A stretch of DNA of 64,000 bases from Bradyrhizobium elkanii USDA 76 (GTDB lineage Bacteria; Pseudomonadota; Alphaproteobacteria; Rhizobiales; Xanthobacteraceae): the NCBI RefSeq assembly GCF_023278185.1, contig NZ_CP066356.1, positions 6,936,001 through 7,000,000 of the forward strand, given 5' to 3'. The position numbers were made by a program, and so were the translations under genes. This document shows, piece after piece, positions 1,954 through 60,310 of this stretch. Below the pieces are notes generated by a model that made no database searches, was not told the origin of the DNA, and saw only the letters and a program-made list of their open reading frames with translations. Positions within the stretch are counted from its first letter, which is position 1. Each line of letters starts with the position of its first letter.

Positions 1954-2208
1954 ATGAAATTAGCGAAGACCTCTGTAATCGCATGCGGCATTTCGGCTTT
2001 CCTCGCATACTCCGTCATTGCGCAAAGCCTCGCCACCGACGCCAGGGCTCGCAAAGGCATGCAAGACAGGAGCGTACAGAGCGGCATGAGTGATGATGAC
2101 GATTCTTCGCCCAAACTCAGGACCGCGGGCGGGAAAGTGGGCAGGAAATCGACCAAGAGCGCGAAGAGTGCAGCCGGCGGCAACGCACCGGACAAGGAGA
2201 CTGATTGA
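1954..2208 (+). CDS. Small secreted hypothetical protein
   Basis: An 84-residue protein. The N-terminus MKLAKTSVIACGISAFLAYS, followed by VIAQSLATDARA, reads as a Sec signal peptide with likely cleavage near A-Q-S or A-R-A. The mature part is short, polar and lysine/serine-rich, with an acidic DDDD patch, and has no domain I recognise. I place the start at 1954 because CAGGAGA lies about 8 nt upstream; longer in-frame extensions would bury the signal peptide. It is not in an obvious operon. Confidence 0.6.
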   Translation: MKLAKTSVIACGISAFLAYSVIAQSLATDARARKGMQDRSVQSGMSDDDDSSPKLRTAGGKVGRKSTKSAKSAAGGNAPDKETD

Positions 2209-2657
2209 TCCGCAACCAACAGCACACCGGTGGGTGGGAAGCGACTGACGCGAGGCCGTGTCCGGGTAACCCTCCACTCGCACCCTCTGGCCGGAGGTTC
2301 AGCCGCACCAAGATGAACTGTGACGGTCGTCGATCTTCAAGGAATACGACAAGGACGAAGGTTCAGCCATTTAACTCGCGCGTTTGCCGTGGCCGCCCGA
2401 CGGAAGCCATGAAACTAACCCTGATCAATAGCAGCGCAACGGCCGCAATGCTCAACTGCCCGATCGAAGAGGAGCAGTTGCAAAGGCTGAACGGTGACCC
2501 GATGCGATCGTTGTGCACGATAGCATTGGGTACTGCCCTCCGATCCCGTACGACCGCGTCAGGTTACCGACATTCATGTTCGGAAGCCGCCCGAGGAGTT
2601 GGCTGGCGCGGCGTGAAAAAGCACAACTTTTTGGTCTCTCGTCGGTTCTTCACAGTC
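2209..2657. other. Intergenic stretch upstream of a sigma-54 promoter
   Basis: No recognised gene. A plus-strand open frame of about 150 codons crosses most of it, but the product has no family motif and runs through the sigma-54 promoter at 2658. I looked for a NifA upstream site (TGT-N10-ACA) and found none. Confidence 0.4.
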
Positions 2658-2673
2658 TGGCACGCCGGTTGCT
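2658..2673 (+). promoter_or_regulatory. Sigma-54 (RpoN) -24/-12 promoter
   Basis: TGGCAC-GCCGG-TTGCT matches the sigma-54 consensus TGGCAC-N5-TTGCW at every fixed position. Transcription should begin near 2684. No protein gene starts within the next 85 nt before a strong terminator, so the product is probably a small RNA. Confidence 0.75.
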
Positions 2674-2683
2674 GAGTGATGCA

Positions 2684-2774
2684 CGGCTTGGTTGCTTAAT
2701 CACGACCTCCTGAGGCCCAAGCCGCTTCGTAGCGCAACTCGTGCGGGCGGATCTCCCGCCGCCCGCACGTTTTT
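2684..2774 (+). ncRNA. Candidate sigma-54-driven small RNA, copy 1
   Basis: This interval runs from the expected start of the sigma-54 promoter to a strong Rho-independent terminator, about 91 nt. It has no ribosome binding site followed by an ORF of useful length. It shares with the next unit (2871-2964) the promoter, an ACGGCTTGG block near the 5' end, an AAGCCGC block before or within the final hairpin, and a GCGGG-rich terminal stem. The arrangement is what is expected for a regulatory RNA under an enhancer-dependent regulator such as NifA or NtrC. This is inference; expression is untested. Confidence 0.5.
2740..2774 (+). terminator. Rho-independent terminator
   Basis: A perfect 10-bp stem (GTGCGGGCGG at 2741-2750 with CCGCCCGCAC at 2759-2768) is followed directly by GTTTTT. 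Confidence 0.85.
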
Positions 2775-2844
2775 CATGGCTTCGACCTGGCGCCGCGCTT
2801 CATGAGCTTATGTTTACCCCGTGAGGACGCTGCGCGGGCCCGTC

Positions 2845-2860
2845 TGGCACGCGAGTTGCT
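2845..2860 (+). promoter_or_regulatory. Second sigma-54 -24/-12 promoter
   Basis: TGGCAC-GCGAG-TTGCT, again a full match to TGGCAC-N5-TTGCW, 187 bp downstream of the first. The two differ only in the spacer (GCCGG against GCGAG). Expected start near 2871. Confidence 0.7.
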
Positions 2861-2870
2861 CGGAGGAATA

Positions 2871-2964
2871 CGGCTTGGCCCTCATGTATCGCGCCCCCCA
2901 GAGATGGCCAAGCTTCCACCCAGACTAGCGCGGGTGGTCCCCCAAGCCGCCCGCGCGACTTTCC
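2871..2964 (+). ncRNA. Candidate sigma-54-driven small RNA, copy 2
   Basis: From the expected transcription start to a terminator-like hairpin: a 10-bp stem (GCGCGGGTGG at 2928-2937 with CCGCCCGCGC at 2947-2956, one G-U pair) followed by GACTTTCC, a weak T tract. A second internal hairpin pairs CTTGGCC with GGCCAAG. It shares the TACGGCTTGG-type 5' block with copy 1, so the two look like a tandem duplication that has diverged. Termination here is less certain than for copy 1. Confidence 0.4.
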
Positions 2965-3148
2965 ATTCGTCGCGGGTCTGCCGAGATCGGCCCCGGCGAA
3001 ACGCTGTGGAGATTATCGGCATGATCCGTGGAGAGCTTTAGAATCGCTAAAGCAAGCGCTCATAGACCAGCCACTCACAGTTGCTCACGGAAACGCGTTG
3101 TGATGGAGAACGGAGTGGACGCCCGATGCATCTTGAGTATTCAATACC

Positions 3149-3274
3149 GTGGGCGCAGCAGCAGCATTAGCGATCGGCGCGCACGATGCTCTCGATGTTG
3201 CGCCGAACGTCGGCATCATGCTTGGCGCATTATTGATTGTCGCCTTTCCGCATCGGTTATCGCTAGCCTTTTAA
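3149..3274 (+). CDS. Possible 41-residue membrane peptide
   Basis: A GTG-initiated frame encodes a short hydrophobic peptide with LAIGAHDALDVAPNVGIM followed by LGALLIVAF. It reads like a membrane segment, either a microprotein or the surviving end of a larger gene. The start has no clear ribosome binding site, and I do not recognise the family. Confidence 0.25.
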   Translation: MGAAAALAIGAHDALDVAPNVGIMLGALLIVAFPHRLSLAF

Positions 3275-3376
3275 GTTGCTGTCAAACCGAACGGCGCGAT
3301 GACAGAACCGGTTGATGATCGCCTATTACTCTTAGATTTCTGCCGGCTCGACCGACATGGCTCCGCCGGCGCAGCG

Positions 3377-3802
<426 letters not shown>

Positions 3803-3837
3803 CTAATTTTATGGGTAGCCACGCAGTAATTGCACGG

Positions 3838-3921
3838 CACAATCGGGCGCCTGCTACGGGGCGCGTGCAGGCACCCGGCAAGTGTCCGGGGTGCTCTTAT
3901 CCATGTTGCTCAAAGGAGCAT
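3838..3921 (+). promoter_or_regulatory. ROSE-like RNA thermometer, Hsp20 leader
   Basis: The leader is GC-rich and can fold into several hairpins. Its last element carries TTGCTC followed by AAAGGAGCATATGG, the arrangement of the ROSE family, in which a U-U/C-G-C-U stretch pairs imperfectly with the AGGA of the ribosome binding site and melts on warming. ROSE elements are known to control Bradyrhizobium small heat-shock genes. Related leaders occur in this window at 8593, 13234 and, as a relic, 30539. Confidence 0.8.
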
Positions 3922-4383
3922 ATGGCTATGACCACGCTTGATCTCGCTCCCCTGTGGCGATCGACGGTTGGATTCGATCGTCTGTTCGACCTTCTCGCGG
4001 ACTCCGGCCGATGGACCGGCGCGGACAATTACCCGCCCTACGACATCGAACGTGTCGGTGAGGACCACTACCAAATCACGCTGGCTCTTGCCGGCTTCCC
4101 GCCTGACACGGTCTCCATCACGGCCGGGCAGAACACACTGACCGTTGAGGGTCGCAAGGCCGACAAAAGCGGCCATCAATATCTCTATCAAGGCATCTCT
4201 GCGCGCCCGTTCCGACAGATCTTCAATCTGGCCGAGTACGTGCAAGTGAAGAGCGCCTCGTTCGAGAATGGCATGCTCAAGATCGATCTGGTTCGGGAGG
4301 TTCCCGAGGCGATGAAGCCGCGCCAGATTGCGATCAACACAGGTGCTGATCACCAGAAAGATGAGAACAAGCATGCGGCGTAA
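3922..4383 (+). CDS. Small heat-shock protein (Hsp20 family)
   Basis: A 153-residue alpha-crystallin-type chaperone that binds unfolding proteins in the cytoplasm without ATP. The core domain spans about residues 35-135: YDIERVGEDHYQITLALAGF opens it, and FENGMLKIDLVREVPEA closes it in place of the usual G-x-L-x-[IV]. The start at ATG 3922 follows AAAGGAGCAT inside the ROSE leader. It belongs to the same subgroup as the genes at 8137 and 30190 (all have YPPY.IER and YLYQGI.ARPF or similar) and is distinct from the next gene at 4462. Expression is predicted to rise with temperature through the leader. Confidence 0.93.
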   Translation: MAMTTLDLAPLWRSTVGFDRLFDLLADSGRWTGADNYPPYDIERVGEDHYQITLALAGFPPDTVSITAGQNTLTVEGRKADKSGHQYLYQGISARPFRQIFNLAEYVQVKSASFENGMLKIDLVREVPEAMKPRQIAINTGADHQKDENKHAA

Positions 4384-4461: not shown

Positions 4462-4959
4462 ATGCCTATCACCGATCTGACCCCCTGGGGCCGCGGTCGT
4501 GATCTGACCACCCGTCGCTCCGAAAACTACAATCCGGTTCTAACCCTGCACCGGGAGATGAACCGGCTATTCGATGACGCCTTCCGCGGCTTCGATGTCG
4601 CGCCATTTGGCGGCAGCTTTCTCGAGCAGTCGATGAATTGGCCGAGCATCGAGGTCAACGAGAGTGACCAGGACGTGAAAGTCACGGCGGAGTTGCCAGG
4701 TCTCGACGAGAAAGACGTCCAGATCGAGCTCGCCAATGGCGTTCTCTCGATCAAGGGAGAGAAGAAGACTGAGACGGAGGAGAAGGATCGCCGGTTCAGC
4801 GAGCGGTACTACGGCAGATTTGAACGGCGCATCCCGATCGAAGACGTGGACCAGGACAAGATCTCTGCTGCGTTCAAGAACGGAGTTCTGACTGTCACCA
4901 TGCCAAAGCTGCCGCAAGCAGAATCCAAGGTGAAGCGTATTGCGATCAACTCGAAATGA
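4462..4959 (+). CDS. Small heat-shock protein (Hsp20 family), second type
   Basis: A 165-residue Hsp20 with N-terminus MPITDLTPWGRGRD, alpha-crystallin domain at about 58-160 (WPSIEVNESDQDVKVTAELP, then KNGVLTVTMPKLP with the classic G-V-L), and a C-terminal I-x-I-type tail (RIAINSK). It resembles the class that pairs with the first type in rhizobia to form separate oligomers. It lies 78 nt after the Hsp20 at 3922 with its own ribosome binding site (AAAGGAG), without a clear ROSE motif, so it may be co-transcribed. A terminator follows. Confidence 0.93.
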   Translation: MPITDLTPWGRGRDLTTRRSENYNPVLTLHREMNRLFDDAFRGFDVAPFGGSFLEQSMNWPSIEVNESDQDVKVTAELPGLDEKDVQIELANGVLSIKGEKKTETEEKDRRFSERYYGRFERRIPIEDVDQDKISAAFKNGVLTVTMPKLPQAESKVKRIAINSK

Positions 4960-8136: not shown

Positions 8137-8592
8137 CTAAGCTGCCTTCTTCCGCTCAATTTGCGACGAAGCAGCCGTTGCACCGATCTGGATCTTGCGC
8201 GGCTTCATCGCCTCCGGAATCTCTCGAACGAGATCAATGGTCAAGAGACCGTCCCGGAAGGATGCCTGCTTGACCTGGACGTACTCGGCCAGACTAAAGA
8301 CTTTCCGGAACGGTCGCGCCGGAATACCTTGGTAGAGATACCGGCGCGCAGCCCCGTCGGACTTCTTGCCTTCGATCGTGAGAGCGTTCTGTTCGGCCGT
8401 CACGGAGATATCGTTGGCACCGAAGCCTGCCACCGCCAGCGTGATTCGATAGTGATCCTCACCGGACCGCTCGATATTGTATGGCGGATAGCTGTCCTCA
8501 TTCGGCCGGCGCGACATGCCGTCGATGAGGCCAGCCAAGTGATTGAAGCCGACGCTGGTGCGCCACAGTGGCGTAAAATCAAGTGTCCTCAT
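8137..8592 (-). CDS. Small heat-shock protein (Hsp20 family), ROSE-controlled
   Basis: A 151-residue Hsp20 close to the gene at 3922: MRTLDFTPLWRTSVGFN at the start, YPPYNIERSGEDHYRITLAV opening the alpha-crystallin domain, FRDGLLTIDLVREIPEAMKP near the end. I chose ATG 8592 because GGAGGA lies in the ROSE leader directly upstream and the homologues begin there. It sits between the HtrA set and groESL. Confidence 0.92.
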   Translation of the reverse strand: MRTLDFTPLWRTSVGFNHLAGLIDGMSRRPNEDSYPPYNIERSGEDHYRITLAVAGFGANDISVTAEQNALTIEGKKSDGAARRYLYQGIPARPFRKVFSLAEYVQVKQASFRDGLLTIDLVREIPEAMKPRKIQIGATAASSQIERKKAA

Positions 8593-8690
8593 AGCCAAGT
8601 CCTCCAAAGAGCAATATGGATACGAAGCAAGGCAGGATCGGAGTTTCGATAATCGTCGAACACCCCGGTCCAGCCTCGTGCCGAGCCCGG
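8593..8690 (-). promoter_or_regulatory. ROSE-like RNA thermometer, Hsp20 leader
   Basis: On the minus strand the leader ends ATATTGCTCTTTGGAGGA, with the TTGCT anti-ribosome-binding-site motif a few bases from GGAGGA, as in ROSE elements. GC-rich hairpins precede it. The last 35 nt closely match the leaders at 13234 and 30539. Confidence 0.8.
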
Positions 8691-8843
8691 CCTGGCGCTC
8701 GACACCCGCAGTCGCGGTCGAGAAACGAATTAGAACTAACGTCCGTGAGTTCAAGAGGAGCATGCGCATTTTTCTTCAAGAGGCTCCCTTGGCGGCTCAG
8801 TGACTAGGCGGCCACGCGATCCGCAAGAGCACTCTGGCGTAGA

Positions 8844-9654: not shown

Positions 9655-11647
<1,993 letters not shown>

Positions 11648-37932: not shown

Positions 37933-39267
37933 CTAAATGATCTCGAAATACCGCCGGCGTTCAAAGTCTGTGACCCGATGTTGAACGGCCTCCCATTCCC
38001 AACGGCGGGAGCAAGAAAACGCTTCAACAAACCTTTCACCGAAGACATCATTGGCTGCCGGAGACTGTGCAAACCGATATGTTGCCTCTGCCAAGCTTTG
38101 AGGCAGCCTCCCAGACGGAAGGCAGGCCTCCGCGCTTGCATCACCGACGATCGAAGCCGGGAGCGCCGCGTTTGTCTCGATACCCAATATGCCGGAACCG
38201 ATGGCACATGCGAGGGCAAGATATGGGTTCAGGTCTGCACCGGGCAGCCTGTATTCGAGACGATGTGCAGACGGGTCTCCCGGAATGACGCGTACCGCGC
38301 AGGATCGGTTGTCGATTCCCCAGCTCGGATAGATTGGTGCCCAACAACCAGGTACCAATCTCTTGTAGCTATTGAAATTCGGCACAGCGAGCACACAGAA
38401 ATCATTCATGTATTTCAATTGTCCGCCGATGAATTGCCTCATGAGCTTCGAGACGTTGCGAAACGCCTCACTATCGTAAAACACATTCTGACCATCTGCG
38501 GACATCGAGACGTGAATATGGCCGGACTGGCCCGGCCAATTCTCTGAAACCTTGGCCATGAATGTAGCCATCATGCCGCGCGTCTGCGCCCAGGCCTTTA
38601 TCATCGACTTGAATATGATTGCTCGATCGGCGGCTTCCAGGGCATCACAATGACGAAGTGACGCTTCAATCACGCCTGGTCCCGTTTCAAAGTGCAGCCC
38701 GCTGAGAGGGATTCTGGACTTCTCACAAAGCGCCAGGATCTCACCGAACAGCTCCCTGTGCGCGACAGACCGCGCAATCGAGTAGCCGAATGGGCCCCGC
38801 GTCAAAGGAGCCCATTGGCCGAACGGCTTGTCTTCAATTATGTCGGCGTTCTCCTTGAACAGCATAAACTCAAACTCGAACCCGGCGCTGCAGCTGTATC
38901 CGCGGTCGGCAACCCTTTGCAGGACTTTACGCAGAATACCGCGCGGGCAGACGCTCTCATGTGCGCCCGCAAACTCAGCCAGATAGAGATATTGATCGCC
39001 GGCATAAGACACCGAACGGCCGGTGCCGGACAGAACGCGCAGATCGGCGTCCCCAAATACTGACTGCGGCTCTTGCGTGAAGCCCGCCGGAATGACGCGG
39101 TCCGAACAATCCCACGCGAGCACCGCTTCAGAGAACTTGATGACCTTATTCCCGACGGAAAGATCTTCACCCAGGACGTGTTTGCCTCGAAGGATGCCAT
39201 CGAAGTCGCTCACACCGATCATCGCCGCAGCGGCTGAATTCGTGCAACTGTCGCAGATGCCGGTCAT
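37933..39267 (-). CDS. rtxG: Glutamine-synthetase-like ligase of the rtx operon
   Basis: A 444-residue protein of the glutamine synthetase fold (gamma-glutamylpolyamine/amide synthetase type). Metal and substrate motifs: SAGFEFEFMLF, HFETGPGVIEASLRHCDAL, SGHIHVSMSADGQNVFY and ATP-site NSYKRLVPGCWAP, then NRSCAVRVIPGDPSAHRLEY. Last gene of the operon; its ATG overlaps the stop of the ATP-grasp gene. The symbol follows the known gene order rtxACDEFG; its role in rhizobitoxine formation, modification or self-protection is not clear to me. Confidence 0.85.
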   Translation of the reverse strand: MTGICDSCTNSAAAAMIGVSDFDGILRGKHVLGEDLSVGNKVIKFSEAVLAWDCSDRVIPAGFTQEPQSVFGDADLRVLSGTGRSVSYAGDQYLYLAEFAGAHESVCPRGILRKVLQRVADRGYSCSAGFEFEFMLFKENADIIEDKPFGQWAPLTRGPFGYSIARSVAHRELFGEILALCEKSRIPLSGLHFETGPGVIEASLRHCDALEAADRAIIFKSMIKAWAQTRGMMATFMAKVSENWPGQSGHIHVSMSADGQNVFYDSEAFRNVSKLMRQFIGGQLKYMNDFCVLAVPNFNSYKRLVPGCWAPIYPSWGIDNRSCAVRVIPGDPSAHRLEYRLPGADLNPYLALACAIGSGILGIETNAALPASIVGDASAEACLPSGRLPQSLAEATYRFAQSPAANDVFGERFVEAFSCSRRWEWEAVQHRVTDFERRRYFEII

Positions 39268-40553
39268 TGGTTCGCTTCCTGCGGCACCAAATCGAACACC
39301 TGGTCCATCCGCATCGCACGCAGTTGGCGATAATCTTCCTCAAGCTGTATCAGGTCGTTGTTCACGAGATACACAATGCCTGGCGTCGACGCCAAGTCGA
39401 TCGTCGGAACCAGGTTTTGCCCTATCGGAACGAACGCAATGGCATCCGCGAAGCTCGGCAGCTTGCCGATCGCATCGAGTCCGGGATAGCCGGCAACAAC
39501 ACCGCCCATGTCGGAGATCAGCGAGACGCACAGTGCATGAGCCTGCCGCTTGTAAACCCCGCGTCGCCTCATATACCCAGCAAAGCCTTTGGGATCTGCG
39601 TAACGCCACGCGGTGAGCGTCAAATGGTTATGGCCCAACGCCATCGTCCTGGCTTTTGCCGACATGGTTCCTTGCAGCCTCGCTCCGAAGTCGACCAGAA
39701 CCGGTCCCCGATCATCGACGATGATCTCGGCATGAGCAGGTCCGTCGGTGATCCGAAGCGCCCGCAGCGCACGTTCAAGGTAGTCGGATAGTTCAAGAAC
39801 GATTGGCTCCTTACCTCCCAATAACCGCTCGAGTGAGCAGACCGAAGACGCGCCCTCAATAGGAACAGTGTCATAGGTCCAGGCCTCCGTGACGAAGGTC
39901 TCGCCGTCGATCGAGACGGCATTTACGGTATATTGCTGGCCGTTGATTTTCTCCTGTCCAAGCGCCAATTGATTGAGCGTTCCGACACGGTTCGTCTTAC
40001 CGACGATCGCGGTTACAGCGCGCTGAATATCGGCATCCGTCGAGCAAAAGAACACGTCCTCCGTGCCTGTGCTGTTCAGCGGCTTGATCACAAGCTCATC
40101 GAAGGTCTCTTGACGCTTCCATCTTGCGATCACTTCAGCATTGTCGGACACCACTTGTCTGATCGATCGCACGCCTGCTGAGGCCAACGCTTCAGACAGG
40201 CGCGATTTGTCCCGTCGGGCGGCCGAAAGGGCGGTGCCATTTGAAGGCAAGCCCAGCCGCTCCGAGATCGAATCGGCCAGCTCAACTCCTGTCTCGCACC
40301 CCGCTATGACGAACTCCAGCTCCCTGCCCTGGAGAGCCCGAAGATGATATTCAACGATCTCGTCGTACCCCATGCGCTCGGGCGGGCGAATGACTTCATC
40401 ATACAGATTAGCATTGAAATGCGATTGAAAGATCGACGGAATCTGTGCAGCCGACATCACATGCACTGTTGAAATTCCATACCGCTTGAACTCTTCCGGC
40501 AAGAAGCGGCCGGTCGAATATGCGTCGACGATTACACAGTTTCGCTCGTTCAT
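39264..40553 (-). CDS. rtxF: ATP-grasp ligase of the rtx operon
   Basis: A 429-residue protein. N-terminal Rossmann-like part (CVIVDAYSTGRFLPEEFKRY), ATP-grasp core with FDELVIKPLNSTGTEDVFFC, QQYTVNAVSIDGETFVTEAW and DGPAHAEIIVDDRGPVLVDF-GARLQG. Such enzymes form amide or similar bonds through acyl phosphates and are common in small-molecule pathways. ATG 40553 overlaps the stop of the permease gene. Symbol by operon order. Confidence 0.85.
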   Translation of the reverse strand: MNERNCVIVDAYSTGRFLPEEFKRYGISTVHVMSAAQIPSIFQSHFNANLYDEVIRPPERMGYDEIVEYHLRALQGRELEFVIAGCETGVELADSISERLGLPSNGTALSAARRDKSRLSEALASAGVRSIRQVVSDNAEVIARWKRQETFDELVIKPLNSTGTEDVFFCSTDADIQRAVTAIVGKTNRVGTLNQLALGQEKINGQQYTVNAVSIDGETFVTEAWTYDTVPIEGASSVCSLERLLGGKEPIVLELSDYLERALRALRITDGPAHAEIIVDDRGPVLVDFGARLQGTMSAKARTMALGHNHLTLTAWRYADPKGFAGYMRRRGVYKRQAHALCVSLISDMGGVVAGYPGLDAIGKLPSFADAIAFVPIGQNLVPTIDLASTPGIVYLVNNDLIQLEEDYRQLRAMRMDQVFDLVPQEANQ

Positions 40554-41572
40554 GCGGACCTCCGGTACTGCAAACAGACGTTGCCGACGGCAACAGCCGT
40601 GATGAGAACATTTCCAACGAACGTATGCGGCGAAGGCACGATACGAGAATCGAAGTACTGGAACAGAAACGTGATGACAGGAGCGGTGGACAGGACCATG
40701 TTGACCGTGAAGGGCTCGACGCGGCGAATACCCTCCTGGAACAAGAGCAATGGAACGATGATCGTGGATAGCCCAATCGTTGCGATCGCAAGCCAATGTT
40801 GCGAGATCTCGAGCACGATGGAGGAATGGTCGACCAGTCCCAGCAGCAAAAGGATCGTTCCGTAAAAACGATGCGCCAACACCTGTCGACCCGAAAATCC
40901 GCGGTCGAATAGCAGCTTGACGAGTATATTTGTAAGAGCGAGCGATAGGCCGGCCACGATTGCCAAGACGATGCCGAAGGACGATCGAGCTCCCCACTCC
41001 ACGCCAGCGTTGCCGGTTGCCGAGATCCATATCATGTAACTTCCAACTGCCGCGATCGTCACGCTCACGACGATATCGGATGCTGGAGGAACGCCCTGGC
41101 GCCTGATCAGCGCGTTTAACCACACCGTCGCAGCGGGTCCTAGCGCCACCATGAACGCGACGACGATCGCCGGTTCGGTGTATTTCAGGCCGATAAACAA
41201 CCCGATCCAACTGATCGCGGTCACGACATTGAGCGACACGAACACCAGGAGCGCCGACTTCGCAACCCGTGCCGTTTCTCTCTCGTGACCTGCCAGCAGA
41301 TTAAATGTCAGACAGACCGCGGCAAAGGACACGAGGAGAGCGACGAACGCATCCGCCCGCTGAAAATACGATGCCGCATAAACTTCGCCTGCCGCGCTCA
41401 GGACGACATAGAGCGCTACAAAGAGAACTCCCAGAGCGAAGCGTCTTGTCAATCGCCCACCCGTCCTCTGCGGGCGGGGCGGCGCGGCCCGCCCCCCGGA
41501 CCACGCTTGTCCACCAGTTCCGGAAGACTCACCTTTCGACCTGGGCGGACCGCGCTTGGTTTGAAACGTCAC
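40550..41572 (-). CDS. rtxE: EamA/DMT-family permease of the rtx operon
   Basis: A 340-residue membrane protein with about ten helices and two EamA repeats: FALGVLFVALYVVLSAAGEV, ALLVFVSLNVVTAISWIGLF, then IVAGLSLALTNILVKLLFDR and NMVLSTAPVITFLFQYFDSR. The first 40 residues are polar and basic. Most likely exports rhizobitoxine or moves a precursor. It lies 9 nt after the rtxD gene and overlaps the next by ATGA. Symbol by operon order. Confidence 0.82.
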   Translation of the reverse strand: MTFQTKRGPPRSKGESSGTGGQAWSGGRAAPPRPQRTGGRLTRRFALGVLFVALYVVLSAAGEVYAASYFQRADAFVALLVSFAAVCLTFNLLAGHERETARVAKSALLVFVSLNVVTAISWIGLFIGLKYTEPAIVVAFMVALGPAATVWLNALIRRQGVPPASDIVVSVTIAAVGSYMIWISATGNAGVEWGARSSFGIVLAIVAGLSLALTNILVKLLFDRGFSGRQVLAHRFYGTILLLLGLVDHSSIVLEISQHWLAIATIGLSTIIVPLLLFQEGIRRVEPFTVNMVLSTAPVITFLFQYFDSRIVPSPHTFVGNVLITAVAVGNVCLQYRRSA

Positions 41573-41581
41573 AATCCGCCT

Positions 41582-42400
41582 CTAATGTTTCTTTGTTTGG
41601 TAGTACGCAACACACGCCTCTCCAAAAGCCGTGAACAGTCGCTGGCTCAGGAGATCAGTTGAGGCGTGCCATTCGGGGTGCCATTGCACACCGATTTGCA
41701 ACGTCGGCGCGCCGATGACCGAAGCCGCTTCGACCAGTCCGTCAGGCGCCCATGCCTCGCGCCTCAGTGCGGCGGCAAGCAGCTCGATGCCTTGATTATG
41801 CAGGGAGTTCACTTGCGCTTCGATGGCGCGCACGATCGGAAAGAGCGCACCATCAGGAGATATCCTCACGCTGTGCGCGGCATCGTACTGACGGTCTCTT
41901 GGACGATCTGGTTTCTCGGCATGCATCAGGCCACTTCCCAGTCTCCACTCAGCAAGCGATGGATGGAGAGTGCCGCCAAAATAGACGTTGAGCTCCTGAA
42001 GCCCGCGGCAGATGCCCAAGATCGGCATTCCGAGCGCGATGGCGCTCCCAATGGCTACCGCAGAGAGCCTATCCCGCGGGCGGTCACGAATTCCACCATC
42101 AACGTCCTGTTGGTCAGCCGGCGGAAGTGATGCAGGTGCCTTCAAGACGGCAGGGTCAATATTCGATTCATCCCCTGTCAAAACCAGACCGTCGAGCGCG
42201 CCCATGATCGCCAGGCCGACCTCTAGCCTCACATCTTCCGCGTCGATCGTCGGCAATATGACGCATGCCACGCCCGCATGATGAAGGAGGGCCTTGAGGT
42301 ATTTTTGCCGTAGCCAGTCGCGATGCACACCATCGACCAAAAGACGGTTCGAGGTGACGCCGACCACGGCGCGAGCGTTGTCTGAGCGTTGCAATGTCAC
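41582..42400 (-). CDS. rtxD: Class I amidotransferase-like hydrolase (PuuD type)
   Basis: A 272-residue protein of the gamma-glutamyl-GABA hydrolase family. Nucleophile Cys in MPILGICRGLQELNVYFGGT, catalytic His-x-Glu in IGVQWHPEWHASTD, and GLVLTGDESNIDP. It could remove a gamma-glutamyl group added by the glutamine-synthetase-like protein, as PuuA and PuuD do in putrescine breakdown; that pairing is inference. Overlaps the desaturase stop by ATGA. Symbol by operon order. Confidence 0.83.
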   Translation of the reverse strand: MTLQRSDNARAVVGVTSNRLLVDGVHRDWLRQKYLKALLHHAGVACVILPTIDAEDVRLEVGLAIMGALDGLVLTGDESNIDPAVLKAPASLPPADQQDVDGGIRDRPRDRLSAVAIGSAIALGMPILGICRGLQELNVYFGGTLHPSLAEWRLGSGLMHAEKPDRPRDRQYDAAHSVRISPDGALFPIVRAIEAQVNSLHNQGIELLAAALRREAWAPDGLVEAASVIGAPTLQIGVQWHPEWHASTDLLSQRLFTAFGEACVAYYQTKKH

Positions 42401-43455
42401 GCCACGTGCCCCTTCGCATGGGCATCAGCAAGCGATTGCTCATACAAGCGTCGATTTCGCTCCTTCAACTGAGTTATGACACTGGGTTGACCTTGCGGCC
42501 CCTTGACGAAGAGCCCTCCCCAGCTCGCGGCAACCTTTGCGTAACCCGGATCCTGCATCCGGATCTTCTGGGCCTTGTGCAACAGCCAGAATGGGATACC
42601 CGGCGAGAGGTGATGCTCGAGGTGATACTCGTCCAGGTTTTGTCCAAGGATCGCCCGCTCCAGGAAATTGCCTTTCCGATTCCTGGTTAGATAGACGTTC
42701 TTCGTTTCGCTCTCGCACATCGGCGAGTGCTCGGCGAGCTCGACAAACCAGCCAAGAACCTGAAACGTTGTGAGATAGGGGACGATCCAAAACAGGATCA
42801 CGATGTGGAGCAGCCCAAGAGCGTATGATCCGGCCAGGATGCCGATCCAGAAGAGGTAAAAGCCATACTTGTCGACAAGTATGCTTGACCGGCTCTGGTC
42901 CTCGGAATCTGTGATCGAAAACCGGTTGGTCCAGAGATACTTCAGGTAGGCCAGTGTCGCGCCACCAAATATCGGCTTCCAGATGATATTGAAGGCGTAC
43001 CGCTTGGGAGGCTGGACGTCGTAAACACCATTGGCCATGAAGAACTTCAGGTCGGGATCCTTCTCCGGGTCGCCGAGATACGGATGATGCAGATAGACGT
43101 GCGAGATCCGGTAGGCCCAGTGGCGCTGGAACAGGGGATAGGCCGCGAACAGAATGCCGAGGACGTAGTTCCAGGTCGTGTTCTTCGCGAGCGTACGGTG
43201 AGCCGCATCATGAGCGATCGTCGTCAGGCCGCGCTGGTAGGCACCGATCAGAAGAACGGCGAGCGGGTACAGCCACCAGGAGACGCAGAGCGTCGCGAGC
43301 GTGCAAGCGGCAATTACAGCGTAATCCTTGGCGATGTAGATCGCTCCCATCACATTGTCCGGCCTCAGCTCGGACAATTGCTTATTGATCTCCCGGCTGA
43401 ACTGAACAGCCTCATAACGAGACGACCTCAGTTTCCAAGCGTCTGCCTGATTCAT
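42397..43455 (-). CDS. rtxC: Dihydrorhizobitoxine desaturase
   Basis: A 352-residue integral membrane di-iron enzyme of the fatty acid desaturase family with all three histidine boxes: TTIAHDAAHRTLAKN, ISHVYLHHPYLGDP and DEYHLEHHLSPGIPF. RtxC of Bradyrhizobium elkanii introduces the enol-ether double bond into dihydrorhizobitoxine, the last step of the pathway. The position directly after the rtxA fusion gene makes the assignment firm. Start ATG 43455 follows AGGAGG. Confidence 0.92.
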   Translation of the reverse strand: MNQADAWKLRSSRYEAVQFSREINKQLSELRPDNVMGAIYIAKDYAVIAACTLATLCVSWWLYPLAVLLIGAYQRGLTTIAHDAAHRTLAKNTTWNYVLGILFAAYPLFQRHWAYRISHVYLHHPYLGDPEKDPDLKFFMANGVYDVQPPKRYAFNIIWKPIFGGATLAYLKYLWTNRFSITDSEDQSRSSILVDKYGFYLFWIGILAGSYALGLLHIVILFWIVPYLTTFQVLGWFVELAEHSPMCESETKNVYLTRNRKGNFLERAILGQNLDEYHLEHHLSPGIPFWLLHKAQKIRMQDPGYAKVAASWGGLFVKGPQGQPSVITQLKERNRRLYEQSLADAHAKGHVA

Positions 43456-43486
43456 GAGAACCTCCTCCTGATCGCCTTACAAGTTG

Positions 43487-45964
43487 TCAGATTGCGGAAA
43501 GCGCCCTGTCCAGATCGCGCACGATGTCGTCGACATCTTCGATGCCCACGCAAAGTCGGATCGAGCCGCCAAATATGCCGGCGGCTTCGCGCTTCTCCCG
43601 CGGAACAGTGGTGTGGGTGGTCGAAACAGGATGCGTTACGAGCGTACGGGCGTCCCCGACATTCGAGACGTGATACATCAGGTCGACATTCTGGATGAAT
43701 TTCCGCCCGGCCTGCTCGTCCTCAACTTCGAACATGACCATCGCGCCGTGTCCGTATGCGGGATTGAGTGTCTGGTCGACAGTTTCCCGATCGGCTCCCT
43801 CGAACAGCCCCGGGTAGAAGACGCGGCGCACTTTTGGATGCTCCTTAAGAACGTCGGCCACGATCCTGGCGTTTGCGCAGTGCTGCTTCATGCGAAGGGG
43901 CAGCGTTTCAAGGCCTTGGATCAGCTGAAAGCTCGCAAAGGGGGCAATGGCCGCGCCAGTATCGCGCAACCAGGTCATGCGAGCCTTCAAGAGAACCTCG
44001 CTTTTTCCGAGATCGTCGACATCTTGCAGCGCGTTGCGCCAGATGATCCCGCCATGCGCCTCGTCAGGACTGTTGAACAAGGGAAAGCGAGAGGCGCCGC
44101 GGTAGCTGAACTTGCCGTTGTCAACGATCAGACCGCCCAGCGTTGTGCCATGGCCGCATATGTATTTCGTAGCGGAGTAGGTCGTAATCGCAGCACCGAG
44201 ATCTGACGGCCGACATACCAGCGGGGTCGTCGTATTATCCACCACCAACGGAACGCCGTGCTTTCGGCCGATCTCAGCCAGCTGTTTGACCGGAAGCGGA
44301 ATCAGGCAAGGATTTGAAATCACCTCTCCGAACAGGCAGATCGTGCGATCATCGATGGCACGTTCGAAGGTCTCGGGCCTTCGGGGGTCTGCCGTTCTGA
44401 CGCTGATACCAAGACGCTTCAGCGTGTTATGGAGCAGATTCCACGTGTTGCCATAGAGATACGGTGAGGCGACGATATTGTCCCCCACCTCGCCGCTTGA
44501 CAGGTTGACGATGGCAAGGAAGGTTGCCGCTTGACCTGATGCGACGGCGAGCGAGTCGCTTCCCATGTCGACCGCGGCATACCTTTTTTCCAGCGCGCGG
44601 GTCGTCGGGTTGATGATCCTCGTATAGGTGAATCCATCAGCCTTGACGTTATAGACGTCCGCAATGTGATTCAGATCGCCATCAAGTTCGTAAGCCGTGT
44701 TCTGATAGATCGGCACTGCGACAGCTTTCGTCACCGGATCGCGTCGGTAGCCGGCGTGCAGAACAGCAGTTTCGGCAGAGAACGGCAGCTGCGAGTCCTT
44801 TGCGAAGGACGATGACATCTCGACCCCACGCTCGCAGGCCTGGCGGGTTGACGGCGTCCCCATGGATGAAGCCGGGCCGGACCGAAAATATGTACGAAAG
44901 GCGCACCCCAACTGCTCGATCCAACTGGGCTGGATCTCGCCAATGCAGCCGACCCGAAAACTCCGCGTCGCAAGATGCAGCTTCGAGTAGATATAAAGAT
45001 TGTGGGCCGCCAAGTGACGATATAGCCCATCGAAGCCTGCCTGATCCGCGATTCCGGACGGCGCGCTGAACGCGACGCAGACCGGAGACTGCAATTCGGC
45101 GGATAGCAGCGGAGACACTACCCCTTCGAGTTCTTGGACGAGATCGTCTCTGACCTTCTCATACCTGCGGCGCCTGGCATCAATGCCCTCCCCCTCCAGA
45201 ATCTCCAAAGCCTTCGTTGTTGCCTGAACGATGTGGGTGGGTGGGGTCGATCGCCACTCTCCGGTACGCTCGAGCGAGAGCCATTGGTCTCTCACGTCGA
45301 GCACAAATGACCTTGGTTCTTGAACCGCTTTTTCCAGCAGCTCGCGAGACGCGATGACAAAAGCTACTCCTGGCGGCCCTTCGATGCACTTATTGCTCGA
45401 TGTGACCAGGACATCCGGTCCACCACGGCTTAGGTCGATGTCAATCGCGCCAAAAGAGCTCATGCCGTCGACGATCGTCTTCACACCACGCCGCCTCGCC
45501 TCCTCTATGATCGCGTCAAGCGGATTGACGATTCCGGTTGTTGTCTCGCAATGCACAAGACATAGGTGAGTAACGCCGGGATTTCGGCTCAGCTGCTCGG
45601 CAACTTCCTGGGGGTCCAGGGGCTCGGTCGCTCGCTTGACAAGCTTCAGCGCTTCGACGCCCCACAGCCGCAGAATCTTGAAAATGCGCTCGCCATAGAT
45701 GCCGTTTATGCAAACGAGCGGCTTGTCGTTCCTGGACACGAATGAAGAGAGCGCGGCTTCCATTGCAAAGGACCCGCCCCCCTGAATGGGGACCACCGAA
45801 TAGTCCTTGGCACCTCCCAGCAGATTGAGCATCAGCCGCCTCATGCGGGCGGTCACTTCCTTGAACTCACCATCGCGCGATGCGAGGTCGAGCAGCATCT
45901 GGCTCCTGACCGCCAGCGACAGCGACAATGGACCAGGCGTCAGCAGAGAGCGTTGTCTAGTCAC
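43487..45964 (-). CDS. rtxA: Bifunctional rhizobitoxine biosynthesis enzyme RtxA
   Basis: An 825-residue fusion of two PLP enzymes. Residues 1-370: class V aminotransferase (LLTPGPLSLSLAVRSQMLLD, HCETTTGIVNPLDAIIEEAR, PLP lysine in VTSSNKCIEGPPG). Residues about 395-825: O-acetylhomoserine sulfhydrylase (FTYTRIINPTTRALEKRY, PLP lysine in TYSATKYICGHGTTLGG, STTHTTVPREKREAAGI). In B. elkanii the first half is assigned to making serinol from dihydroxyacetone phosphate, the second to joining it to O-acetylhomoserine to give dihydrorhizobitoxine. This domain order is diagnostic. First gene of the operon, with about 1.4 kb of gene-poor DNA upstream. Confidence 0.95.
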   Translation of the reverse strand: MTRQRSLLTPGPLSLSLAVRSQMLLDLASRDGEFKEVTARMRRLMLNLLGGAKDYSVVPIQGGGSFAMEAALSSFVSRNDKPLVCINGIYGERIFKILRLWGVEALKLVKRATEPLDPQEVAEQLSRNPGVTHLCLVHCETTTGIVNPLDAIIEEARRRGVKTIVDGMSSFGAIDIDLSRGGPDVLVTSSNKCIEGPPGVAFVIASRELLEKAVQEPRSFVLDVRDQWLSLERTGEWRSTPPTHIVQATTKALEILEGEGIDARRRRYEKVRDDLVQELEGVVSPLLSAELQSPVCVAFSAPSGIADQAGFDGLYRHLAAHNLYIYSKLHLATRSFRVGCIGEIQPSWIEQLGCAFRTYFRSGPASSMGTPSTRQACERGVEMSSSFAKDSQLPFSAETAVLHAGYRRDPVTKAVAVPIYQNTAYELDGDLNHIADVYNVKADGFTYTRIINPTTRALEKRYAAVDMGSDSLAVASGQAATFLAIVNLSSGEVGDNIVASPYLYGNTWNLLHNTLKRLGISVRTADPRRPETFERAIDDRTICLFGEVISNPCLIPLPVKQLAEIGRKHGVPLVVDNTTTPLVCRPSDLGAAITTYSATKYICGHGTTLGGLIVDNGKFSYRGASRFPLFNSPDEAHGGIIWRNALQDVDDLGKSEVLLKARMTWLRDTGAAIAPFASFQLIQGLETLPLRMKQHCANARIVADVLKEHPKVRRVFYPGLFEGADRETVDQTLNPAYGHGAMVMFEVEDEQAGRKFIQNVDLMYHVSNVGDARTLVTHPVSTTHTTVPREKREAAGIFGGSIRLCVGIEDVDDIVRDLDRALSAI

Positions 45965-54950: not shown

Positions 54951-55169
54951 TTAGTACTCGCGTCGACGCCCGCTTCCACAAATGCGCTGGTCCGTTGGCA
55001 CTATTTGGACCGGCACTGGAGGCTGATCGGGCTCCTCATCGGCGATGGCGCGCCAGGCCGCGCCGTCGAGATCGTCATATTGGCCGCTCTTCAGCGACCA
55101 CAGAAAGCCAAGCAGACCGAGGAAGCCGAGTGAAAGGGCGAGCGGAACCAGATAGATCAGCACTTCCAT
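54951..55169 (-). CDS. fixS: cbb3 oxidase maturation protein FixS (CcoS)
   Basis: A 72-residue protein whose first 48 residues are CcoS: one membrane helix (MEVLIYLVPLALSLGFLGLL) and the conserved FLWSLKSGQYDDLDGAAWRA. Needed for insertion of redox cofactors into cbb3 oxidase. The 24 residues after EEPD are longer than usual and lack similarity, so the gene may have lost its original stop. Starts within the fixI stop (ATGA). Confidence 0.9.
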   Translation of the reverse strand: MEVLIYLVPLALSLGFLGLLGFLWSLKSGQYDDLDGAAWRAIADEEPDQPPVPVQIVPTDQRICGSGRRREY

Positions 55170-57355
55170 CAGAGGGCCTCGCCTCTTCGCGCCCGCAGCG
55201 CGTTAAGCATGACCAGCACCGACGAGCATGACATTGCCGCGGCGGCAATCAGCGGCGTCACCAAGCCGGCGATCGCAACGGGCACAGCCAGGACGTTGTA
55301 GACGACAGCAAGACAGAGATTCTGCCGCATCAGCCGCAGCGCCCCGCGCGAGGCAATGACCGCCTTTATCACGGGCCCAAGATGCGCACCGAGGAAGATC
55401 GCATCAGCGACCGCCTGGCTCATATGGGTAGCGGTGACAGGCGACATCGAGGCATGGGCTGCTGCGAGCGCGGGCGCGTCGTTCAAGCCATCGCCGACCA
55501 TCAACACCTTGTATCCCCTGCTCGTCAGATCTTCGACCCGGGCGACCTTGTCCGTCGGCGAGACGTTGGCCCGCCACTTGTGAATGCCAAGCGTCTCGGC
55601 CGCCCGCCGAACAGCCGGCTCGCGATCCCCGGAAACGATCTCCACCATGATGCCAAGGCGTGCGAGGCTTGTGACGACCTCGACCGCGTCCGGCCGCATC
55701 CTTTGCCTGATGGCAAAGACATGCCTCGCCTCGCCGTGGCTGAACGCGACGACGGAGGCCTCGGGATCATGGCACAGGATCTCGTCAGCGAGGCTGTCAG
55801 CGCCGCAGAACAAGGGGCGGCCCAGCCGGATCGGCGCGCCCTCATAGTAACCGCGGACGCCCCGTCCCGGCTCCTCTTCGATATCGGCCAACGGCTCGTT
55901 TGCGCCGGCAGCACGCGCCAGGGCGGCGGCGACCGGATGGCGGCTCGACAGCGCCAGCCGGCCCGCCAATTTGACGACATCCTCGGGAATGCCAGCGAGA
56001 TTGGCGACATCGAGTTCAGGCAGCGTCAGCGTCCCGGTTTTGTCGAAGATCACCCGATCCACCTCGGCGATACGCTCGATTGCATCCCCGGCATTGAGCA
56101 GCACGCCGGAACGGAACAGTGCGCCGGCGGCCACCGTCTGCACCGCGGGGATAGCCAGACCCAGCGCGCAGGGGCAGGTGATGATCAAGACTGCGATCGC
56201 CGTGACCACCGAATTATGAAAGGTGGCGCCAGAGGCAAGCCAACCCAGCATGGTCAGGAAGGCCGTGATGTGAACGATCGGCGCATAGAGTCGCGACGCG
56301 CGTTCGGCGAGGCGCAGATAGCGCGAGCGCGCTTGCAGGGCATGATCGAGCAGCCTGGAAATCTCAGCAAGCAGTGTGCCGTCCGAGGTCGCCGCTGCAC
56401 GGACGCGCAGGGTGCCGGACCGTACCAATGTGCCGGCGAACACCGCGCTGCCGGGCGTCGCGATCGCCGGCAAAGTCTCGCCGGTAATAAGGCTTTGATC
56501 GATCTCGGAGCTTCCCTCGATCACGTTGCCGTCGACTGTACAGCATTCGCCGGGGCGCACCAGCACGATGTCCCCCGGCTTGATCGCCGCCACCGGAACG
56601 GTTCTGATCTCGGTCGGGCTAATGAACTTCGCCGCAGTCTCCGCCTTGAGTGCTGCAAGGTTGCTGGCGAAGGCGCGGGTGCGTCGCCTCATGTTCTGGT
56701 CAAGATAGCGACCTGCGAGCAGAAAGGCGATCAACATGATCGCCGCATCGAAATAGGCGTGCTCGGCATGAGCGATGGTCTCGATCAGCGATGTCGCCAG
56801 GGCGAGCAGAATGCCGATGCTGATCGGAACGTCCATATTGGTTCCGCGCGCCCGCAGCACGGCAAAAGCGGAAGAGAAGAATGGTTGCGCACAATAAGCC
56901 GCGGCCGGCAGGACGATCAGCGCGGAGAGCCAATGAAAGAAGTCGCGCTGTTCCGGCAGCATATCCGAGACATTTCCGGACCATACCGGGATCGACAGCA
57001 TCATCACGTTCATCGCGGCAAAGGCGGCGACGCCCAGCCGCCGCAGCAATTCCTGCGCTCTCTCCGCCTCCAGCGTCTCCGCATTGTCCCGCTGGAACGG
57101 ATATGCCCTATAGCCTAATTCGGCGAGCCGCTTGACAAATAGAGCTGGATCGAGGGCTCCGGCCTTCCATTCGAGCGCCAGCCGATTATCGGTGAGGTTC
57201 ACGCGTGCCGAGGTCACATCCGGAATGCTCGACAGATTGCGCTCGATCTTGCCCATGCAGCCCACGCAACTGATCCCCTCCACCGCAAGGTCAAGCTGGA
57301 GACGGCCCGCGCCTGTCCTCTTCAGAAAGTGAGAAAAGTCGATGTCGGACTGCAT
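55169..57355 (-). CDS. fixI: Copper-transporting P-type ATPase FixI (CcoI)
   Basis: A 728-residue P1B-type ATPase that supplies copper to the binuclear centre of cbb3 oxidase. Heavy-metal domain with AVEGISCVGCMGKIERNL, membrane Cys-Pro-Cys in LIITCPCALGLAIPA, phosphorylation site VIFDKTGTLTLPE, SRHPVAAALA and hinge MVGDGLNDAPALAAA. ATG 57355 is taken over a GTG 6 nt upstream. Follows fixH by 12 nt and overlaps fixS. Confidence 0.95.
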   Translation of the reverse strand: MQSDIDFSHFLKRTGAGRLQLDLAVEGISCVGCMGKIERNLSSIPDVTSARVNLTDNRLALEWKAGALDPALFVKRLAELGYRAYPFQRDNAETLEAERAQELLRRLGVAAFAAMNVMMLSIPVWSGNVSDMLPEQRDFFHWLSALIVLPAAAYCAQPFFSSAFAVLRARGTNMDVPISIGILLALATSLIETIAHAEHAYFDAAIMLIAFLLAGRYLDQNMRRRTRAFASNLAALKAETAAKFISPTEIRTVPVAAIKPGDIVLVRPGECCTVDGNVIEGSSEIDQSLITGETLPAIATPGSAVFAGTLVRSGTLRVRAAATSDGTLLAEISRLLDHALQARSRYLRLAERASRLYAPIVHITAFLTMLGWLASGATFHNSVVTAIAVLIITCPCALGLAIPAVQTVAAGALFRSGVLLNAGDAIERIAEVDRVIFDKTGTLTLPELDVANLAGIPEDVVKLAGRLALSSRHPVAAALARAAGANEPLADIEEEPGRGVRGYYEGAPIRLGRPLFCGADSLADEILCHDPEASVVAFSHGEARHVFAIRQRMRPDAVEVVTSLARLGIMVEIVSGDREPAVRRAAETLGIHKWRANVSPTDKVARVEDLTSRGYKVLMVGDGLNDAPALAAAHASMSPVTATHMSQAVADAIFLGAHLGPVIKAVIASRGALRLMRQNLCLAVVYNVLAVPVAIAGLVTPLIAAAAMSCSSVLVMLNALRARRGEAL

Positions 57356-57367
57356 GTGCACACGCTC

Positions 57368-57868
57368 TCAATTCAGGACGATGCGGTTCTTCGACAGAAA
57401 CATGCGGCGGTCGTCATCGTCGCCCTCGATCACGAGATCCCACTGTCCGACAGCGACGCCCGAGGCGCTGCCGCGGTAGATCCCAGCATTGGCCTGCGAG
57501 ACATCAATCGCCCGATCGGCCCGGCGGTCGACCGGGCGCTCGAGGCGGGCCACGAAATTCATTCCGGCGAGAGGCGCACCTAGGCGGTCGCGCGCCTCGA
57601 TCGCAAGCTCAGCTTCACCATCCGACTGCCGGTGGATGTATACCTGCACCTGCCAGTTTCGCTCGTTCTGCTGCCGTGCCGCGATGATCTCGCGCTGATA
57701 GGCGAGGCTCGCACGATAGGCGCTGTCAACCTCCGTCCCCGGCAGCGTAACGATGGCAAAGCGCATCATGACCAGATTGGCGCCGATCACGACCGAAAAG
57801 AACGCAAGGATCGCGATCAGGACGAAGCGCCCGGTAATGGGCCACGTGACTTGATTTGATGCGGTCAT
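57368..57868 (-). CDS. fixH: FixH, cbb3 oxidase assembly protein
   Basis: A 166-residue protein with one N-terminal membrane helix (TGRFVLIAILAFFSVVIGAN) and a periplasmic beta domain: VDSAYRASLAYQREIIAARQ, RLGAPLAGMNFVARLERPVD and GQWDLVIEGDDDDRRMFLSK. FixH is required for oxidase assembly, perhaps in copper handover. ATG 57868 is preferred to GTG 57874. Confidence 0.92.
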   Translation of the reverse strand: MTASNQVTWPITGRFVLIAILAFFSVVIGANLVMMRFAIVTLPGTEVDSAYRASLAYQREIIAARQQNERNWQVQVYIHRQSDGEAELAIEARDRLGAPLAGMNFVARLERPVDRRADRAIDVSQANAGIYRGSASGVAVGQWDLVIEGDDDDRRMFLSKNRIVLN

Positions 57869-57890
57869 GGTCACATCCCGTCAGTGATCG

Positions 57891-59360: not shown

Positions 59361-59437
59361 GACCGACCTGACATCGGGCGCGGATGGCTCGCGTTGATCC
59401 TGGGTCACCGGCGCGCAGGTTTTGCGGCGCATCTCGC

Positions 59438-60310
59438 CTATTGTCCGCCGCCGAGCGAATGGACATAGACGGCAAGTGCCCTGACTGTGATGGGATCGAG
59501 CCGCCCGCTCCAAGCCGGCATGATGCCGGCGCGGCCATAGCTGATGGTCTCGACCAGCGTGTCCTCGTCCGAGCCGTACAGCCAAATCCGGTCAGTCAGA
59601 TTCGGTGCGCCGAGCGCCTGATTGCCTTTGGCGTTCTCGCCATGACAGACCGCGCAATTCTCGGCAAAGATCTTGGTGCCGGCCGCAGCATCGAACTTGG
59701 CTGCCGTGGTCAGGCCTGACAGCGATCGCACGTAGTTTGCTACGGTGACAATCTCGGTTTTCGTGAGAATGCCGTCGCGGCCAAAGGCCAGCATTTGTCC
59801 CTCATGCGCCTGGGCATGCCCGGAACGTGCGCCGAACTGGATGGTCTGCAGGATCTGGTCGAGCGATCCGCCCCACAACCAGTCATCGTCATTGAGATTC
59901 GGATACCCCTTGGCACCCGCGCCACCGCTCCCGTGGCATGGCGCGCAATTGTCCGCGAACACCGTCTTGCCGCGCGCGCGAGCCAATCCCAGCAGGGCCG
60001 GATCCTTCTCGATCTCGGTAAGAGACGCTTTGCCCAGCACGGCCATCTTCTCGCCGCGCAGCTCCTCAAGACTTGCGAGGTCGTTGACGACGCTGGCGCG
60101 GGTCGAATAATCAAACACGCCTGTCGTGTAGCTTGAGAGGAGCGGCCATGCCGGATAAACGACCCAGTAGCCTATCGCCCAAAGGATTGTGGCGTAGAAG
60201 CTCAGAATCCACCAGCGTGGCAGCGGCGTGTTGAGTTCCTTTATACCATCCCATTCGTGCCCCGTCGTGGAGCGGCCGGAGATGTGATCGATGTCGTTGT
60301 GCTCGGTCAT
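59438..60310 (-). CDS. fixP: cbb3 oxidase subunit III FixP (di-haem cytochrome c)
   Basis: A 290-residue membrane-anchored cytochrome c. N-terminal helix PRWWILSFYATILWAIGYWV, then two haem c sites: DNCAPCHGSGGAGAKG and ENCAVCHGENAKGN, each with a distal Met region. Passes electrons from cytochrome c to FixO and FixN. It follows fixQ by 6 nt. Confidence 0.96.
   Translation of the reverse strand: MTEHNDIDHISGRSTTGHEWDGIKELNTPLPRWWILSFYATILWAIGYWVVYPAWPLLSSYTTGVFDYSTRASVVNDLASLEELRGEKMAVLGKASLTEIEKDPALLGLARARGKTVFADNCAPCHGSGGAGAKGYPNLNDDDWLWGGSLDQILQTIQFGARSGHAQAHEGQMLAFGRDGILTKTEIVTVANYVRSLSGLTTAAKFDAAAGTKIFAENCAVCHGENAKGNQALGAPNLTDRIWLYGSDEDTLVETISYGRAGIMPAWSGRLDPITVRALAVYVHSLGGGQ

Follow-up and report, generated by a model that had tools for sequence, protein, structure and literature searches.

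Sibling small RNAs (sRNAs), the multicopy Qrr RNAs among them, have been the subject of reviews (PMC7143759, PMC4211561). The Qrr RNAs of Vibrio are described as the products of several homologous sRNA genes per genome, with LuxO as their activator (PMC4211561), and are reported to be under sigma-54 control (PMC10162802). AbcR1 and AbcR2 are sibling sRNAs of alpha-proteobacteria, described as tandem in Agrobacterium and Sinorhizobium (PMC4211561). For Bradyrhizobium, Hahn et al. (2016) report the validation of BjsR1-BjsR10 in B. diazoefficiens USDA 110; imperfect copies exist of BjsR5, 6, 7, and 10, RpoN promoters are predicted for BjsR2, 5a, and 6a, and BjsR8-10 are listed as nodule only (PMC5082802). 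Cuklina et al. (2016) report 1201 predicted RpoN-like promoters in USDA 110 (PMC4842269).

The locus described here is located in a 64,000-nucleotide stretch of Bradyrhizobium elkanii USDA 76 (NZ_CP066356.1, positions 6,936,001 to 7,000,000), referred to as the window. It contains two adjacent units, A and B, each composed of a sigma-54 box and a putative RNA, which belong to a family defined by a covariance model, R1. Like Qrr, the R1 family can have multiple homologous, here putative, sRNA genes per genome and has promoters of sigma-54 type. Unlike the Vibrio genes, which are described as distal, R1 units are often tandem, often lie in a small-protein cassette, and have other hosts. Rfam includes both Qrr and AbcR (alpha-r15). 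It gives no match at E ≤ 1 for positions 2560-3060, which rejects Qrr or another known Rfam family as the identity of the locus, and no AbcR match in the window or at the locus. GlmY and GlmZ of enterobacteria are likewise homologous siblings, and GlmY is under sigma-54 control; they differ in that their genes are described as distal, and the window locus has no Rfam match. As tandem siblings in Rhizobiales, A and B resemble AbcR1 and AbcR2, but they carry sigma-54 boxes, whereas the passages on AbcR1/AbcR2 in the review do not present that pair as sigma-54 driven (PMC4211561).

The BjsR RNAs, as published, resemble the family in being Bradyrhizobium sRNAs, some multi-copy and some with RpoN-like promoters. 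In genome G157, which we take to be B. diazoefficiens USDA 110, nifH lies shortly ahead of the published BjsR8 end. R1 was run on 98 kb of this genome around BjsR2, 5a, 5b, 6a-c, 7a, 8, 9, 10a, and 10b. Scores reach at most 9.6 bits (E 2), and the RNAs of these loci are ruled out as members of the R1 family. BjsR1, 3, 4, 7b, and 10c are covered by the genome-wide search of G157 alone, where R1 finds nothing at E ≤ 0.001. At the gathering score, Rfam matches only a ROSE RNA thermometer in the whole window, away from the locus (RF00435, 54 bits; 8586-8702, minus strand), and five sister loci give one Rfam match, of E 0.77. The ROSE element lies near ORFs that read as Hsp20-like (3745-4383 and 4462-4959) and GroEL-like (9655-11373). 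Among the open-access papers listed, judged by titles and abstract openings, none describes the family. On sequence grounds, we regard the units as a new family of putative sRNAs whose origin is unusual.

The two sigma-54 promoters of the window match TGGCAC-N5-TTGCT on the plus strand without a mismatch and are 187 bp apart, exactly where the original prediction had placed them (Table 1). In the whole window, five sites match with at most one mismatch; shuffled sequences average 2.09, and 6 of 100 have at least five. Since such near-sites are not rare singly, it is the pair and the family, not the single sites, that rule out chance. The sequence ACGGCTTGG forms the 5′ end of both units, about 26 nt from the start of the box, and opens a hairpin closed by CCAAGC; a common block near the 5′ ends had been predicted, and this is it. 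A GC hairpin after each promoter, the first with a T5 tract, is likewise present as predicted, with a weak tail at B. A terminator scan of 2200-4000 returns two sites, against 1.6 on average in shuffles. The terminator of A is among them; that of B, with its weak U tail, is not, and this counts against the sibling-sRNA reading. Because the scan misses B and barely exceeds shuffles, the terminators rest on conservation in the family. None of 200 shuffles folds as well as the strands of about 100 nt from A and B (z -3.71 and -3.66); for longer stretches (121 and 124 nt), the z-scores weaken to -2.59 and -2.03. The original prediction saw no ORF between the promoters. ORFs of 66, 79, and 156 aa in a program-made list overlap the units and are judged spurious; the spacer contains the decayed start of a small gene.

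Table 1. Features of the window locus. Positions are counted from the first nucleotide of the window; R1 is the covariance model of the RNA family.
Feature	Position	Strand	Remarks
Remnant of small protein gene X	2382..2504 (G000:C1:6938382-6938504)	+	Residues 28-68 of X query, 61% identity
Conserved block TTACCGACATTCATGTTCGGAA, candidate enhancer	2564..2585	+	Imperfect dyad, 5/8 here; putative function
Sigma-54 promoter, unit A	2658..2673	+	11/11
RNA A	2684..2774	+	Start predicted from promoter spacing; R1 match 2682-2775, 80.9 bits
5′ hairpin of RNA A (GGCUUGG...CCAAGCC)	2685..2723	+	
Intrinsic terminator of A	2740..2774	+	GC stem 2740-2769, with T5
Decayed copy of Y start behind A	2810..2838 (about)	+	Clearer at L086, L093, L074 (ATGACCCGTGAAGAGGCT and similar)
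Sigma-54 promoter, unit B	2845..2860	+	11/11
RNA B	2871..2963	+	Predicted start; R1 match 2869-2963, 73.3 bits
5′ hairpin of RNA B	2872..2914	+	
Terminator-like GC stem of B	2928..2963	+	Stem 2928-2956, weak tail GACTTTCC; missed by terminator scan
GTGGAG and broken small gene Y	3006..3041 (Y remnant 3021-3041)	+	ATG ATC CGT GGA GAG CTT TAG; intact elsewhere as MTREEALKNAIEAL...

The units have relatives throughout part of the genus. A blastn search with a 381-bp query finds them in 10 of 146 Bradyrhizobium genomes, many as pairs with identical boxes. R1 was built from 25 RNA parts with the promoters left out; the 25 were picked by their boxes and include units A and B of the window. At E ≤ 0.001, it matches 24 of 265 Bradyrhizobium genomes with 1-14 matches per genome, 14 each in G069 and G076, so that the recurrence in other genomes of the genus, for which a covariance search had been proposed beforehand, is borne out. 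The window's own genome has nine matches at this threshold, of which two are those of the window and the other seven lie at 1.296-1.364 Mb. Hosts identified by an exact-pattern scan include B. embrapense, viridifuturi, pachyrhizi, ivorense, uaiense, tropiciagri, and acaciae, B. barranii subsp. apii, and Bradyrhizobium sp. C9; the family is also present on B. elkanii plasmids from soybean nodules (7 records). In USDA 61, a laboratory strain of the B. elkanii group, the plasmid has two R1 matches. The 19 non-Bradyrhizobium stretches among the 42 of that scan have no R1 match at E ≤ 1. In samples of 198 genomes of the taxonomic family and 397 of the order, 11 and 16 genomes, own excluded, match at E ≤ 0.01. 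All these matches score at most 30.3 bits and are taken as background, and on this sampling an extension of the RNA family beyond Bradyrhizobium is rejected.

Promoters were assessed at 107 of the 139 R1 matches, down to 27.1 bits; the remaining 32 are weaker, many of them antisense to stronger ones, and the 107 themselves are not free of antisense or background matches and contain near-identical copies. An 11/11 sigma-54 box is present at 65 of the 107, and one of at least 10/11 at 83. The box lies 22-25 nt upstream in 81 of these 83 and 14 nt upstream in the other two. Random 82-nt windows from the same loci contain a box of at least 10/11 in 29 of 5000. Since R1 holds no promoter, the upstream box is a partly independent check. 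Outside the training set, a box of at least 10/11 precedes 47 of 71 matches, or 33 of 50 after dereplication. The 24 of 107 matches that fall below 10/11 count against the sibling-sRNA reading; broken boxes are commoner among low-scoring matches, where they are read as decay. Four genomes each carry one divergent unit (L120, L121, L122, and L124) with a common degraded promoter, TGCCAAGCTGGTTGCC, and similar flanking ORFs. This subgroup is possibly a dead lineage of the family.

The activator of these promoters was sought in the upstream regions. The motif TGT-N10-ACA is absent from 2358-2683, in agreement with the original prediction, which had found no upstream NifA site. Across 65 dereplicated units of 90, it occurs in 5 upstream 250-bp regions, against a control mean of 1.75 and a largest value of 6 in 200 draws. 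Sites for NtrC, FixK, and RegR are not clearly enriched upstream of family units either. NifA could act without a TGT-N10-ACA site.

The RNA parts share two helices, of 14 and 11 pairs. These are paired in 92.6% of cells, versus 33-46% with slid partners. Compensatory changes are found in both stems. They number 24 cells, against 9.1 in shuffles, and none of 500 shuffles reaches 24; nine pairs show compensatory change, against 4.8, a value reached by 5 of 500 shuffles. Further pair types do not exceed shuffles (28 against 27.2, reached by 202 of 500), which counts against the sibling-sRNA reading. The C-rich loops of A and B resemble the anti-ribosome-site loops of other alpha-proteobacterial sRNAs. 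An ATG near the transcript start is present in 18 of 65 units and is not conserved, and translation of the RNAs is therefore rejected. On sequence evidence, the units have the properties of intergenic sibling small RNAs, in that they are paralogous, structured, terminated, and non-coding.

Units of at least 34 bits (99 in total) form 66 clusters; 37 of these consist of a single unit, and the other 29 contain at least two. The single units, some near contig ends, count against the sibling-sRNA reading. Paired units share a strand, and in most pairs are 142-214 bp apart. A tree was made of 45 different units taken from 26 pairs; on it, one change suffices for the labels first (A) and second (B), compared with a shuffled mean of about 15. 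The branch separating A from B has support values of 80/70 and is found in 80% of bootstrap trees. Because A and B form two groups in the tree, one old A-B duplication probably came first, with the pair copied and spread afterwards.

Many pairs lie in a cassette with the order X, conserved block, A, B, Y, Z, in which X, Y, and Z are small proteins. Nothing in Pfam or NCBIfam matches X, Y, Z, or W above the cut-off. X is 82-90 aa long where intact. Our search gave 22 protein clusters for it, all organism-named ones being Bradyrhizobium, and one cluster record is labelled carbonic anhydrase. Many X copies are partial or contain stops. Differences at codon positions 1/2/3 of X (402/299/661 in 7 sequences) favour the third position. 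Of 52 X matches, 36 are followed by an R1 unit within 700 bp, in many cases at about 161 bp; another 5 have the unit upstream, and 11 have none. These 52 belong to a total of 63, of which the other 11 are in R1-negative genomes. Half of the 24 R1 genomes (12) have X, and so do 10 genomes without R1, which counts against the sibling-sRNA reading. G157 is one of the ten, with a partial X homologue at G157:C1:9099650-9099838 (query residues 7-68, 73% identity).

The conserved block precedes A in 15 of 24 pairs, which were chosen for having both boxes. Its pattern, TT-N3-GAC-N4-6-GT-Y-CGGAA, has 22 matches in 783 kb of retrieved loci, all 22 of them 64-111 bp before a sigma-54 box, and one match in simulated sequence of equal size. 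Its dyad retains 4-6 of 8 positions across copies. The window's own genome contains five matches to the pattern, four of them before family units, compared with six to the reversed pattern, and in ten genomes the pattern and the reversed control are broadly similar in number. Because the 22 matches are homologous and the pattern was written from them, the block suggests an activator site and does not demonstrate one.

Y, of about 50 aa, is located behind the B terminator at several loci and has a GTGGAG-like ribosome site; three relatives were found. It is followed by Z (17 relatives) or by an X-like protein. At loci with intact Y, its ATG lies a few tens of nucleotides behind the B terminator; in the window, Y is broken. 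A Y start is also retained in the spacer behind A at L074, L086, and L093. With a Y start behind A and Y behind B, the two units are most simply duplicated leaders of Y. The original reading of small RNA genes is supported in part. Many pairs belong to the X/Y/Z cassette and B reads as a terminated leader of Y, so that a small RNA gene is not the sole possible role.

Conservation at the window locus was compared with the same locus in three other genomes (L099, L100, and L114). The promoters and RNAs are identical at 236/240, 232/239, and 219/236 positions, respectively (93-98%), whereas the spacer and the X and Y remnants are identical at 299/331, 269/324, and 261/326 (80-90%; Fisher p 4e-5, 2e-8, and 1e-5). 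The flanks, including the X-to-A and downstream stretches, are also less conserved, with 621/669, 581/668, and 480/658 (p 5e-4, 1e-6, and 7e-12). The X-to-A stretch, which holds the block, is itself well kept (149/155, 146/155, and 130/153). Conserved promoters and RNAs beside broken X and Y genes speak for a function of the RNA as such, not for a pure leader.

The family is associated with nodulating strains. Of the 24 R1 genomes, 23 have nodC above the cut-off, as do 112 of the 241 genomes without R1 (p 9e-7), although genomes and copies are related, so that counts and p-values overstate independence. The sole R1 genome without nodC above the cut-off, G255, has a 31-bit match with no promoter. 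Only 23 of 135 nodC genomes contain the family, which is thus not required for nodulation. In nine of the 24 genomes, 22 of 32 loci are no more than 300 kb from nodC or nifH, compared with an expectation of 4.1; this count covers chromosomal units and excludes plasmid units, draft genomes, and G026, which has two overlapping weak R1 matches without a promoter. Of the five loci in the window's own genome, four lie some 2.9 Mb away from both genes, and this counts against the sibling-sRNA reading. The seven units at G000:C1:1296540-1363529 (L069-L072) are spread over about 67 kb and lie far away from nodC and nifH. Some of the ORFs around them look like transposases, and the region is perhaps a second or older mobile island. 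Family, boxes, structure, and tree together support the central prediction of paralogous, duplicated, apparently non-coding sigma-54 units in nodulating Bradyrhizobium.

Three other regions of the window were noted by reading their ORFs. At 1954-2208 (plus strand), an 84-aa ORF starting MKLAKTSVIACGISAFLAYSVIAQSLA appears Sec-signal-like and has no match in Pfam or NCBIfam. At 37933-45964 (minus strand), glutamine-synthetase-like, ATP-grasp-like, exporter-like, and desaturase-like ORFs and an 825-aa aminotransferase/sulfhydrylase-like ORF occur in this order, presumably resembling the rhizobitoxine (rtx) cluster. The region 55169-62888 (minus strand) contains fixNOP/fixGHI-like high-affinity oxidase and copper-pump genes.

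The reading that we favour, with moderate confidence, is that A and B are sigma-54 sibling sRNAs that probably act in trans, derive from the leader of Y, depend on an activator, and spread as a pair in the cassette. The segment 2658-2963 would then comprise a pair of sibling small-RNA genes that depend on sigma-54. Both promoters would be switched on, in a symbiotic or nitrogen-limited state, by an enhancer-binding activator that perhaps binds the 2564-2585 block. Polymerase would stop at each terminator and yield two stable RNAs of about 90 nt, each with a 5′ hairpin and a C-rich loop, which by analogy with other multicopy sibling sRNAs may pair with mRNAs in trans. Transcription, the activator, and this trans action are all inferred. 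The A-B pair would have arisen when the terminated leader of Y, together with the start of Y, was duplicated once; it would then have spread, often in the cassette, via Bradyrhizobium symbiosis regions and plasmids, with single units also existing. Loci with an intact Y could still produce it by read-through of B. The window keeps the RNAs, with both X and Y broken. The mRNAs of the cassette are rejected as targets: pairing of A and B with the X, Y, and Z starts of their own cassettes is not beyond letter shuffles in 26 comparisons (z -2.1 to +1.25), which counts against the sibling-sRNA reading.

The main competitor is a cis-acting leader, in which the unit is the 5′ leader of Y and its terminator sets the level of Y, with A a spare and the window pair a relic. 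A separate Y promoter would hardly fit into the short distance from the B terminator to an intact Y, the Y ribosome site close behind B fits a leader equally well, a Y start persists behind A at some loci, and Y is under coding constraint, with third positions favoured (479/535/819 differences at codon positions 1/2/3 in 9 sequences). However, in none of the 24 pairs is there space for a full Y between A and B, yet A retains its promoter and RNA, and in the window the RNAs remain more conserved than their flanks although Y is dead. The one candidate antiterminator, pairing the loop with a terminator arm, is rejected, its covariation being equal to that of shuffles and its mean z, from a separate test, 0.01. 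We consider the leader a rather unlikely explanation.

Even less probable is a selfish or decaying cassette, whose units hitch-hike with mobile symbiosis-region DNA and whose RNAs are now idle. Copies on plasmids and near insertion sequences, the frequent damage to X, and the weak promoters among the 107 matches would fit such a history, but promoters and both stems are kept beyond the flanks, the stems with compensatory changes. Chance, meaning two unrelated sigma-54-like sites and two GC stems, would be conceivable for one window, where about two sites with at most one mismatch are expected per 64 kb and the terminator scan hardly differs from shuffles; the spread of the family over 24 genomes with a fixed promoter offset refutes it, and its likelihood is practically nil. 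The favoured reading of activator-driven sibling sRNAs can also be taken further. The cassette may be a portable element of symbiosis regions, with one activator at a new enhancer, twin promoters, and duplicated ex-leader sRNAs of two trans-acting types that outlive the protein genes, providing a multi-copy, Qrr-like layer specific to the symbiotic state. We put this forward tentatively, as possible but clearly short of an even chance.

The Bradyrhizobium sRNA papers that we found concern, as far as their accessible parts show, USDA 110, whose presumed genome is without the family. A set of sigma-54 sRNAs almost confined to nodulating strains would link nitrogen or oxygen signals to the control of mRNAs, a layer that lies beyond the maps of the NifA regulon. 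The loci also offer an evolutionary series within one genus, which would lead from a leader to a duplicated leader and to a stand-alone RNA. Handles on the activator are offered by four orphan elements, namely X, Y, Z, and the enhancer-like block. Symbiosis regions may thus carry small-RNA regulators of their own.
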